A stretch of 45,198 nucleotides of DNA from Candidatus Thalassarchaeum sp. (GTDB lineage: Archaea; Thermoplasmatota; Poseidoniia; Poseidoniales; Thalassarchaeaceae): NCBI GenBank assembly GCA_022449945.1, contig JAKURM010000002.1, forward strand, positions 22,214 to 67,411, read 5' to 3'. Of this stretch, positions 14,909 to 19,639 are shown one piece after another. The translations under genes were made by a program, and so were the position numbers. The notes beneath the pieces are model-generated. The model had not been told where the DNA came from, made no database searches, and saw only the letters and a program-made list of their open reading frames with translations. How positions within the stretch are numbered: position 1 is the stretch's first letter; every line of letters begins with the position of its first letter.

Positions 14909-15139
14909 GTGCCTAAACGGCTATTCATGATGGTCAGGCAGATTATTGGCATCTTTCTTGTACTGTTCTTTTTCCCGATAAATATACCCTTGTTGAGGAT
15001 GTTAATGGAATCCCGAGGGATGACGCCATTTGGCGAATTGCAGTTCCTAGGAATATCCCTCACAATGTTCATTGCCGGTTGCCTGATGATATTCACGCCA
15101 CCAGTAATGAAATTTCACTCGGAATCCAAGCATCCATAG
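14909..15139 (+). CDS. Small two-TM membrane protein (start GTG 14909 or ATG 14927)
   Basis: 'IIGIFLVLFFFPINIPLL' and 'FLGISLTMFIAGCLMIF' hydrophobic helices; only 76 aa. Confidence 0.45.
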   Translation: MPKRLFMMVRQIIGIFLVLFFFPINIPLLRMLMESRGMTPFGELQFLGISLTMFIAGCLMIFTPPVMKFHSESKHP

Positions 15140-16011
15140 AGTGATTTTGGCCATTCAGAATGGATATTGAGCATCAGGCTCTCCACTCGCTCCTCCGTCC
15201 ATTGGGCAGCAAGAAGATGCGAACAGAGCTGTTGCGTTCTCTTGGGCACGGTCTTCGGTCCGAGGACTGCCCCTGGCCTCTTGGGATCGTCGAGAAAGTC
15301 GGTTTCCATCCCCCAGGGTGCATCAGAATCGGCCAGGGAAGAAGACAATTGTTCGATACTGCCCTTGCCAACGCTAACTGTGGCCGGTAGATCACTAGTG
15401 AAATCCGAACTGACATCGGGAGGTGCGAAATGCCTGATTGCGCGTTCAATGGGGAGTCCGGATTTTTTGCAGAGTTCACTTAGTTCCCTGCAAGTCGTCG
15501 GACCATTCTCTTCTACATGGAGTTGAATCGCCACTCCTGCCGATGAGGCCATCGACATTACCTCCTGCAGGTTTTCATTGGCTGCTTCCCATGTAGAACC
15601 CTGTACTGGATAATGGGGGCGGCCTACCTCCCCCAGGCAATGAGCCTCCCCCGAATCTATGAACTCAATAGCAAGGCTAACTGCTTCCAAGTGCAATTCT
15701 GTGGAGGCCTCCAATCCTAAAGTCTCTATCTGTTTCTCCCAGACAACCGGATGGGGGCCCAAGGCGACTCCCACGTCAATTCCAAAAGATTCCCTAACTT
15801 CATTAGCCATAGCTATGGTATCCAAGTATGCATCTTTGTACTCATTGGAATCAATGGGTAGTGATTCATAGAATGCGGGTTTGTGAACCAACATCATCCC
15901 AGTACCTCCACACTTAACGAAGTCAGAGACCGCCCCCAGGAACCTGTGCCTCCTGTCCAAGTGGATGTGCTGATCAAAAATTGGCCCTGTCCAGACTCCG
16001 TCCTCGATCAT
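15115..16011 (-). CDS. TatD-related predicted metal-dependent hydrolase (TIM barrel)
   Basis: 'GPIFDQHIHLDRRHRF' HxH motif, 'HCLGEVGRPHYPV', 'AIQLHVEENGPTTCRELSEL'; start at ATG 16011 avoids overlap with the upstream ORF. Confidence 0.8.
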   Translation of the reverse strand: MIEDGVWTGPIFDQHIHLDRRHRFLGAVSDFVKCGGTGMMLVHKPAFYESLPIDSNEYKDAYLDTIAMANEVRESFGIDVGVALGPHPVVWEKQIETLGLEASTELHLEAVSLAIEFIDSGEAHCLGEVGRPHYPVQGSTWEAANENLQEVMSMASSAGVAIQLHVEENGPTTCRELSELCKKSGLPIERAIRHFAPPDVSSDFTSDLPATVSVGKGSIEQLSSSLADSDAPWGMETDFLDDPKRPGAVLGPKTVPKRTQQLCSHLLAAQWTEERVESLMLNIHSEWPKSLYGCLDSE

Positions 16012-16015
16012 GGTC

Positions 16016-16546
16016 TCACGCCAAGGCGCCTTCTCCTTCAAGTTGGGATAACCAATAGTTGGCAGCCATCTCCGCAACCCTACTAGATGATTGGCCCAAT
16101 ACTATCCCCCTGCCATTGTTGAACATTAGAATAGTGCAATTGTGTCTCTTTGCATCTATTCTGAGAGCATCAAGTCTCAAGTCGTGTTCCGCATCAGAGA
16201 ACCTCTCAGCAGCCAGTCCAATCATTACAGCCCTTCCAATGGAAAAACTAGCGAGAACCTCGCCCTTTTCGACCGTCAATCCTGCTTCTGTCATCCCCAT
16301 CCTGAGCAATATTTCTTCGGCGATCAAAGTGGCGGCCTCGGAGTTTGAAATTCCATGGATTAGCAATGTTCCCTCTGGTTCGATCACAATCACTGATCTT
16401 GGATTTTCGTGCTCTATTACCGCATAGGCCCCATTACTCCTAGCACCACATAGGCTCACTGCATCTTGAAGAGAAACTGGATTCTGGGAGGTCACTCTGA
16501 ATGATTGTGTTTCTACTGAAATTGTCAAATCTCCGTCAGGCATCAC
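16016..16546 (-). CDS. Divergent two-repeat TBP-fold (TATA-binding protein-like) protein
   Basis: Repeat 1 'NPRSVIVIEPEGTLLIHGISNSEAATLIAEEIL' and repeat 2 'VLASFSIGRAVMIGLAAERF...HNCTILMFNNGRGIVLGQSSSRVAEMAANYWL' parallel TBP half-repeats. Confidence 0.6.
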   Translation of the reverse strand: MMPDGDLTISVETQSFRVTSQNPVSLQDAVSLCGARSNGAYAVIEHENPRSVIVIEPEGTLLIHGISNSEAATLIAEEILLRMGMTEAGLTVEKGEVLASFSIGRAVMIGLAAERFSDAEHDLRLDALRIDAKRHNCTILMFNNGRGIVLGQSSSRVAEMAANYWLSQLEGEGALA

Positions 16547-17319
16547 TCTCTCCCCACCTTCTCCAGCGAATCGCAGGTACTTAGGCTACTCTCTAGCGAG
16601 TGCAGGTAAGCTTGCTGAACCGGAACAAGAAGAACTGGGGCGTCTGAGTTAGATTCCCTCAGATCTGAGAGCGCACCCCTGAGCCTGGATGAAAGACGGC
16701 TATCCCTTTCACGAATTAATGTAGAGGTTAGTCCGATCCTTTCTTCGGCCCACCAAGCGGCACATACCGTAGCTGCTGCACCAAGATCTGCATTGACAGA
16801 GTTATGCGGGGATACTCGTTTTATTGCTGATTTTCTTAATCGGGACCATCGCTTTGTTCGGCCCAAAGTTGCTAGTAGATTTCGGAACTTAACCTGTTCA
16901 TCGGCCCAGCGGGATTGCCAATCTAACCAATCCTGATCGTCAATTCCTGGCTCGATTGCATAAATCGGAAGACCGCCCCGGGAATTCTCGGCATGGCGGA
17001 TTAGTCGGATTCTCTCAGGATCTGGAATAGAAGGTCCGGCTATTTCCAAAGCCCTGAGATCACGAACCAGCATCCCCAGCGTTGTCCCTGAAGCGGCGGC
17101 TGATTCCACATGGACTCCGGGACTATTCTTGTCCTGCCCTTCTTCGTCTCTTATCGCCAAGAGTTCATCGGGTGATGCAATCAATGCTAGTCCATCCCAA
17201 TTTCTGGGCCTCAGTTCAGAGGGCATCCTAACACATGGAAGATATGGCCAGAGAAGGATTGTCCCTCCCAGAGGGTCTTCGAAAGGCGATGGTTCCCATC
17301 TTAGTTCCGGGATGGACAC
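16543..17319 (-). CDS. Uncharacterized protein, weak TraB/PrgY-like C-terminal motif
   Basis: 258 aa; 'LIRERDSRLSSRLRGALSDLRESNSDAPVLLVPVQQAYLHSLESSL' vaguely like the TraB 'eRD..ma..l...vl.vvGa.Hl.gi' pattern; 4-nt ATGA overlap with next gene. Confidence 0.45.
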   Translation of the reverse strand: MSIPELRWEPSPFEDPLGGTILLWPYLPCVRMPSELRPRNWDGLALIASPDELLAIRDEEGQDKNSPGVHVESAAASGTTLGMLVRDLRALEIAGPSIPDPERIRLIRHAENSRGGLPIYAIEPGIDDQDWLDWQSRWADEQVKFRNLLATLGRTKRWSRLRKSAIKRVSPHNSVNADLGAAATVCAAWWAEERIGLTSTLIRERDSRLSSRLRGALSDLRESNSDAPVLLVPVQQAYLHSLESSLSTCDSLEKVGRE

Positions 17320-17986: not shown

Positions 17987-19639
17987 ATGTACTTAGCCGG
18001 GCCTAAGGGCCCGATGGAGAAGAGGAATGCTGAGCTTTTTGGTGAACTCAACTTAGTCGGGACAAGAGGGAAGTGTTGCGCCATACTAACAGAGCGTCAG
18101 CTAACCATAGAGAGGTTTGACGGCAAGGGACTGAGGCTAGACTTGGCTGCAATAGATAGAATGAGGCATCTGAAGGTTCCAATGTTGCCTTCGGGGACCT
18201 ATCTCCTTGGTGGGATCGCAATCTATCTTGGAATAACTACGATCATGTCCCCCTTGAGTTGGGTGTCAATCGGAGTAGGTTTTACTGCTATAGTATCGAA
18301 CTTCATTTCCAGGTACTCGATTCTAGCCATAGAGACTGGTTCAGGTGGAAGGCATCTAGTCTCAGGAAGCGAGGGGAATCTACTGAAGCTTTGTCTGATG
18401 GTCGACCGTGTAAGGCACGGAAGTGACTTGGAAGAGGCTCGAATAGGACTGGAAGAGCTGGAAACCGGACTCCCCACATTCCCCTCAATAAGAGATGCAA
18501 AGGGGATCCTTGCCACACCTGATAAAAAAAGCAAAACAAATATGGGGATGCTTGGACTTCCATCGGGAATGGCCAGTATTGAGGCATTTGAAGTGGACAC
18601 GATTATGGATCAAGTTCCGCTAGAGTCGGTGGCAGACAATCGAAACGAAAGGCTGCCAGACAGCCCTAGCATTAGTGATTTCTCGGGCCCAGCAGTGGCG
18701 CAGAATGAGCAAAACTCACTAAATGCATACGAAAGAGCCTGGGGGGTAGATAGTACTCCCTCATGGTACAAGGAAAGGGAAATTGCTCAGGCTCCCGAGA
18801 ACAGAATTGATTCAGCTCTAAGTGATGCATCTCAAGGGATGGACCTCTTCGCTCCTGGTTGGATTTTTGATGCGGCTACGCCAAGCGAGATAGATGAATT
18901 CAGAGAAAACGGAAATAGCGATTCTGGTGTGCTCGGAGATTTGTTTGACTCGACAGAGCAGAGGGAGAGAGAACTGTCTAGTTCTCAAATGATAAAGCAG
19001 GCCCACAATTCCTTCGGTGCCCCTGAACAGCCGTATGTTCGGCCCATGCTACCTCCTCCGACAGACGAGGCAGTCAGAGAGGAGTGCAGGGCAGGAGTAG
19101 TCCGTCGGGCGAGAGCGAAGCAGGAGCTTCGCCTCAACAACATGACTGAGGCGCCAATAAAACCCGCAAATCTAGAAGAGTATCCGGCCCTAAACAAACT
19201 AGCCAATTCAATGGGTACCACGAGATTGTCAGTGAACATGGCAGATTCGAAAAAGCCATCGTCGGGTTGGCTAGGAAGGCTTCTAAGGCCAAGTGGTGGA
19301 ATGGTGGTTAGGGAAGAAAATAGAGGGGTTTCGAATCAAAAATCCGAGGTCGTTTCAGACGAAAAGCCACGCTTCCAGAGTTCCCAGCACATGAGGCTGA
19401 GAAGCGACCAGGAACATCAGGCAGAGGTTGGTGCAAGAATCCGAGGAATGAGGAATTCTGCTGAATATTCTTCTGCTAAGGATACACTGGATTCGATAGT
19501 ATCTAGGATTCAGAGTGGGGAAGAGGAGGCTCCTAGGATGATGGAGGCTCCGAGCAACTCACTGAGATTCGGCCAATTAAGGCCCACCTCCTCTAAAGAC
19601 GATCCGCATCCGCTCCCTGGTCTTCGAAGACTGGGCTAG
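17987..19639 (+). CDS. Uncharacterized protein: N-terminal membrane-hairpin domain plus long low-complexity/disordered tail
   Basis: 550 aa; 'GTYLLGGIAIYLGITTIMSPLSWVSIGVGFTAIVSNFI' TM pair, then Ser/Glu/Arg-rich region. Confidence 0.65.
   Translation: MYLAGPKGPMEKRNAELFGELNLVGTRGKCCAILTERQLTIERFDGKGLRLDLAAIDRMRHLKVPMLPSGTYLLGGIAIYLGITTIMSPLSWVSIGVGFTAIVSNFISRYSILAIETGSGGRHLVSGSEGNLLKLCLMVDRVRHGSDLEEARIGLEELETGLPTFPSIRDAKGILATPDKKSKTNMGMLGLPSGMASIEAFEVDTIMDQVPLESVADNRNERLPDSPSISDFSGPAVAQNEQNSLNAYERAWGVDSTPSWYKEREIAQAPENRIDSALSDASQGMDLFAPGWIFDAATPSEIDEFRENGNSDSGVLGDLFDSTEQRERELSSSQMIKQAHNSFGAPEQPYVRPMLPPPTDEAVREECRAGVVRRARAKQELRLNNMTEAPIKPANLEEYPALNKLANSMGTTRLSVNMADSKKPSSGWLGRLLRPSGGMVVREENRGVSNQKSEVVSDEKPRFQSSQHMRLRSDQEHQAEVGARIRGMRNSAEYSSAKDTLDSIVSRIQSGEEEAPRMMEAPSNSLRFGQLRPTSSKDDPHPLPGLRRLG

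Follow-up and report, generated by a model that had tools for sequence, protein, structure and literature searches.

Few proteins of archaea and eukaryotes are as constrained as the TATA-binding protein (TBP), and a TBP-like gene whose product lacks most of the residues that bend DNA raises the question of what such a protein is and what it does in a cell. The gene considered here lies in a stretch of 45,198 nucleotides (the window) from Candidatus Thalassarchaeum sp., a member of the Poseidoniales, which are abundant surface-ocean archaea (Marine Group II). The genome comprises 1.34 Mb in 112 contigs, and the closest named relative contig, at 93% identity, belongs to a Candidatus Thalassarchaeaceae genome.

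The preliminary description had read a 176-aa product at positions 16,016 to 16,546 as two tandem TBP half repeats. This open reading frame, here called TBPL, was indeed present, on the minus strand, which had been left unstated; it starts with GTG followed directly by ATG, and both half repeats were found in its translation (Table 1). The 4-nt overlap claimed for TBPL and its upstream ORF was recovered as well. A gene for a TatD-like hydrolase does follow just after the TBPL stop; its ATG at 16,011 leaves 4 nt in between. Elsewhere in the window, on the plus strand, a 550-aa ORF (17,987 to 19,639) without a Pfam match keeps 40 to 86% identity in Thalassarchaeaceae relatives.

Table 1. Positions of TBPL, its two lobes and the adjacent genes in the window
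Feature	Position	Strand	Basis and remarks
TBPL (176 aa), divergent TBP-family protein with two lobes	16016..16546	minus	PF00352 at cut-off; family, profile and PDB matches; AlphaFold2 model
TBPL lobe 1 (residues ~8-85)	16292..16525	minus	Alignment; FPG stirrup and first Phe deleted; Glu56, His64, Arg17
TBPL lobe 2 (residues ~91-172)	16031..16276	minus	Alignment; PF00352 match at residues 97-169
ORF258, orphan, first gene of the trio	16543..17319	minus	Poseidoniales only; 4-nt overlap with TBPL start
TatD-family metal-dependent hydrolase (Class II, HxH)	15115..16011	minus	PF01026, E 9e-19; ATG 4 nt past TBPL stop

Assignment of TBPL to the TBP family

The window protein alone matched PF00352 exactly at the curated Pfam cut-off (22.9 bits), so the case for TBP membership rests on the TBPL family rather than on this one sequence. 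PF00352 was matched by all 43 aligned family members (best E 3e-13); in several genomes the match was above the cut-off, and in G039 both repeats were recognized separately at E < 0.001. Comparison of the TBPL family with canonical TBPs by hhalign gave 96.7% with an E value of 3.8e-10 over 175 columns. Searched against the PDB, the family profile found TBPs at E 2.8e-10 and solely TBPs down to E 0.002, the first non-TBP appearing at E 0.23, while a single-sequence phmmer search of the PDB with TBPL returned noise only. Most of the TBP signal came from lobe 2, as seen from half-profile comparisons by hhalign (E 2e-8 and 1e-7 with the canonical lobes, the former with lobe 2); lobe 1 was weaker, at E of about 2e-4. 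TBPL is a true TBP-family protein, with a similarity well beyond chance.

The structure prediction is compatible with this: a modest AlphaFold2 model built from five sequences (pLDDT 68) showed strands and helices in the order of the TBP saddle fold, i.e., strand-helix-four strands-helix, repeated. The top 44 PDB matches of this model in Foldseek were all TBPs (E 3e-9 to 8e-6), at a TM of about 0.44 to whole TBPs; the low TM presumably reflects a badly predicted arrangement of the two lobes, whose relative orientation is poor in the model. The proposed TBP fold of two tandem half repeats was thus supported by the Pfam, hhalign, PDB profile and Foldseek results, and neither of the two outcomes that had been named in advance as speaking against it, a model without the TBP fold or a better match to an unrelated family, was encountered. 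Profiles from Pfam, NCBIfam and the PDB gave no match of TBPL to the RNase HIII N-domain, to the RnlA family or to the TBP-fold domains of DNA glycosylases. TBPL is a stand-alone ORF that carries no fused enzymatic domain, and it was not found in viral contigs with two queries.

Altered contact residues and a separate canonical TBP

The DNA-contact positions of yeast TBP, which are established from TBP-TATA structures, were mapped onto an alignment of 19 canonical TBPs and 79 TBPL sequences, all of the latter distinct (yeast numbering is used). One aromatic residue is retained from the set of four kinking phenylalanines that characterizes a functional TATA-box binding protein: the stirrup residue F99 is deleted in 79/79 sequences, F116 is replaced by Asp or Glu in 77/79 (Glu56 in the window protein) and F190 by Leu, Ile or Val in 79/79, and the position of F207 is occupied by Trp in 47, Phe in 31 and Tyr in 1 (Phe142, the LxF position, in the window protein). 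The minor-groove Asn and Thr contacts are lost as a set in both lobes. The DNA-contact threonine T124 is His in every sequence (His64 in the window protein), N159 is replaced by Pro, Glu, Asp or Gly, T215 is variable, and N69, the sole one among these contacts, is partly retained. In lobe 2 the FPG stirrup has become D-x-R-L. What had been noticed in the window protein, namely that 'QFPGL' is missing from both repeats and that a single 'xIF.SGK' aromatic remains, turned out to be constant across the 79 distinct relatives, which supports a TBP fold without the canonical TATA-bending residues. With canonical archaeal TBP (PF00352; Pyrococcus woesei 1ais/1pcz), TBPL shares the tandem lobes, the strand and helix order, a full-length profile alignment and the signature glycines (P-x(n)-G, V-x-G), but it differs in the overall identity of about 16%, in the loss of both FPG stirrups and of three of the four kinking phenylalanines, and in the invariant His in place of Thr.

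The L5.1 position (F116/F207) is a nucleic-acid contact common to TBP lobes, including those of RNase HIII and RnlA, and its mutation lowers DNA binding or transcription (PMC7221094). On this basis, lobe 1 of TBPL lacks the contact and lobe 2 retains an aromatic residue there. The Asp or Glu replacing F116, the invariant His in place of T124 and a nearly invariant Arg17 in strand 1 of lobe 1, all at what are DNA-facing positions in TBP, suggest a rebuilt polar surface. This reading of the concave face is taken from the alignment, as the five-sequence model, given its pLDDT and TM, is unreliable there. The same three residues might instead form a new site on lobe 1 that binds a small molecule or metal or is catalytic, in which case TBPL would have ceased to be a nucleic-acid protein; we consider this improbable, given that there is no independent sign of catalysis or of a ligand and that site geometry cannot be trusted in a model of such low depth.

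The residue pattern also bears on whether TBPL could still be an alternative promoter factor of non-TATA specificity, working with TFB or another bridge. Divergent TBP-like factors of this sort occur in metazoa and poxviruses. They can still act at promoters when the intercalating residues are aliphatic, and for the poxviral ones such a role is possible without the phenylalanines (PMC12917281); moreover, Trp occupies one of the L5.1 positions in TBPL1, and C.L3.2 and C.L3.4 are known as TFB-contact glutamates (PMC7221094). TBPL has an aromatic residue at C.L5.1 and is acidic at the first TFB-contact position (Asp in 77/79), but at the second, which lies beside a one-residue alignment gap, Glu is present in just 34/79 sequences. 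In addition, lobe 1 is acidic exactly at the site of Phe insertion, the stirrup is deleted, and the gene is coupled to a nuclease gene and not to genes of TFB or RNA polymerase. We therefore regard a promoter function of this kind as rather unlikely.

Furthermore, TBPL is not the TBP of the cell, since a separate canonical TBP is encoded on another contig of the same genome (one copy, repeats recognized at E of about 1e-25 and 1e-23). A canonical TBP was found in 59/60 relatives, one of them holding a fragment only. TBPL itself was found throughout a sample of about 223 Poseidoniales genomes, with 11 exceptions, none of which is more than 88% complete. This homolog count across the order upholds the idea of a lineage-specific protein, as TBPL occurs in essentially all Poseidoniales. 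It was not detected in the second family of the class that was covered (f3, 21 genomes, probably Marine Group III), where the best matches to TBPL queries reached E of about 1e-5 to 1e-4 and those inspected were the canonical TBPs of these genomes. For matches elsewhere in the phylum, orthology to TBPL was likewise considered and rejected, since these proteins are canonical TBPs or second TBP copies and TBPL is a clade of its own.

A tree of 53 proteins recovered TBPL as a single clade (support 100/100), whose stem, at about 3.3 changes per site, is too long for its origin to be placed. The tree accordingly neither supports nor excludes that TBPL arose by a duplication of the canonical TBP specific to the Poseidoniales. 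Between the two Poseidoniales families the identity was about 33% for TBPL as compared to 89% for the canonical TBPs from these genomes; judging from these values, TBPL is evolving far faster than its canonical counterpart.

Some canonical TBPs of the order carry insertions. In two genomes (L211 in G018 and L212 in G028) about 220 to 360 aa are inserted between the lobes, and the G028 insertion matches phage virion/tail modules (PHROGs, phrog_2647, E 4e-9). The remaining canonical TBPs inspected from the order have smaller insertions, which follow strand 1 of lobe 2.

The gene trio and the TBP-TatD neighborhood

The order ORF258-TBPL-TatD on one strand was observed at 52 of the 52 loci on contigs of sufficient length, mostly with overlaps or gaps below 10 nt. 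ORF258 was detected in 64 Poseidoniales genomes, and elsewhere in the phylum sample there was just one chance-level match. It had no convincing match in Pfam, NCBIfam, PHROGs, PADLOC or the PDB, and its fold prediction (pLDDT 37.5) yielded no usable fold. A weak His_Phos_1 match in 2/37 ORF258 members was judged to be due to chance and rejected. Models of defense systems gave no match at the locus, and scans for promoters and terminators of the bacterial type, which are ill-suited to archaea, gave counts near chance. In one genome (L028:712-1965, G004) ORF258 and TBPL form a single 418-aa frame lacking the first 38 residues of TBPL; the frame may reflect a genuine fusion or an artifact of assembly.

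The product of the third gene of the trio has intact metal ligands: H15, H17, E128, H165, H194 and D238 are invariant in 29/29 Poseidoniales sequences. It shares PF01026, the HxH motif and the intact Glu/His/His/Asp ligands with Class II TatD proteins (TATDN3, YcfH), but represents a distinct archaeal subfamily, with no PDB profile relative at E 1e-5 and scores under the NCBIfam cut-offs. Across the phylum, a match to this TatD, nearly always single, was found in 223/243 Thermoplasmatota genomes sampled. For TatD enzymes, Mg-dependent 3'-exonuclease and AP endonuclease activities are known (PMC10085689, PMC4176340), which makes nucleic-acid repair or turnover the likely setting of the trio.

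The linkage extends beyond the order: in 19/78 other Thermoplasmatota genomes, from 13 families, a TBP gene precedes this TatD in the same orientation, mostly at 0-150 nt and at most 1.5 kb away. About 0.15 such adjacencies are expected by chance in the 78 genomes, a comparison in which related genomes are not independent. As a TBP is encoded just upstream of the same TatD in 13 other families, TBPL occupies an old TBP slot; an origin of TBPL at the TBP locus is supported by this synteny and not by the tree. The TBP linked to TatD is divergent, too, in G267 and G323. A decayed-looking TBP directly before TatD was seen in G432 (L194:3601-3882), which has further TBPs elsewhere in the genome. 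No description of the TBPL paralog or of the TBP-TatD linkage was found in the literature searched, outside of which most subscription journals fall.

Because the adjacency is older than the divergence of TBPL, the operon neighborhood may be historical, that is, a relic of gene order, with TBPL serving a separate function such as binding of RNA, TFB or MBF1. Conserved gene order alone is no proof of interaction. However, the order does break outside the Poseidoniales, as seen from the 19/78 genomes that have it, whereas it is unbroken in the 52 Poseidoniales loci despite a free canonical TBP, and a third, lineage-specific gene has been gained. We thus regard a mere relic as rather unlikely. 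Taken together, the trio and the wider TBP-TatD neighborhood favor an accessory function associated with TatD over one at promoters.

Proposed role and comparison with known systems

Following this, we propose as the most likely explanation, with a confidence that falls just short of even, that TBPL is a TBP paralog turned accessory factor of the TatD module and freed from promoter duty. TBPL would be an ancient archaeal TBP paralog residing in the Thermoplasmatota TBP slot upstream of TatD; with the separate canonical TBP presumably doing the promoter job in Poseidoniales, it could shed the stirrup phenylalanines and the Phe and Thr contacts of lobe 1. It may then act as a non-promoter subunit of the co-encoded TatD, either for substrate recognition or for regulation, in a putative complex that would include ORF258. 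Lobe 2, with its retained aromatic residue, would contact nucleic acid, and the rebuilt concave face of lobe 1 (Asp/Glu, invariant His, conserved Arg) would contact a partner protein or ligand. TatD would carry out metal-dependent cleavage, perhaps in DNA repair, with TBPL taking a predicted part in its action. A more specific scenario, which we put forward as distinctly tentative, is that at the base of the Poseidoniales a general transcription factor became the recognition subunit of a three-protein nuclease module that serves DNA repair or nucleic-acid turnover and not transcription.

A functional analog of the proposed role is found in the RNase HIII N-domain and in RnlA, where a single TBP lobe with an L5.1 aromatic serves a nuclease (PMC7221094). 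In those enzymes the lobe is part of the nuclease, whereas TBPL is a separate two-lobe protein encoded beside TatD. Metazoan TBPL1/TRF2 and TBPL2 and the multiple TBPs of haloarchaea resemble TBPL in being gene duplicates with altered DNA-contact residues. Contrarily to TBPL, which is acidic at a former intercalation site, these paralogs retain most of the DNA-contact residues and act in transcription. From canonical TBP, TBPL is further set apart by not being the only TBP of the cell and by its coupling to TatD and ORF258.

It seems that a general transcription factor has been turned to another job in the Poseidoniales. An order-wide paralog devoid of the DNA-bending machinery, next to a near-frozen sister TBP, amounts to a natural experiment on the capacity of the TBP fold, and gene order ties TBP to TatD nucleases in at least 13 other families. 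A label of TBPL as a transcription factor, as given at the level of Pfam, would probably mislead. Divergent TBPs also occur elsewhere in the phylum in another arrangement: several Thermoplasmatota genomes of two families (f34 and f16; loci L142-L146) carry head-to-tail TBP pairs, each consisting of one canonical and one divergent copy.
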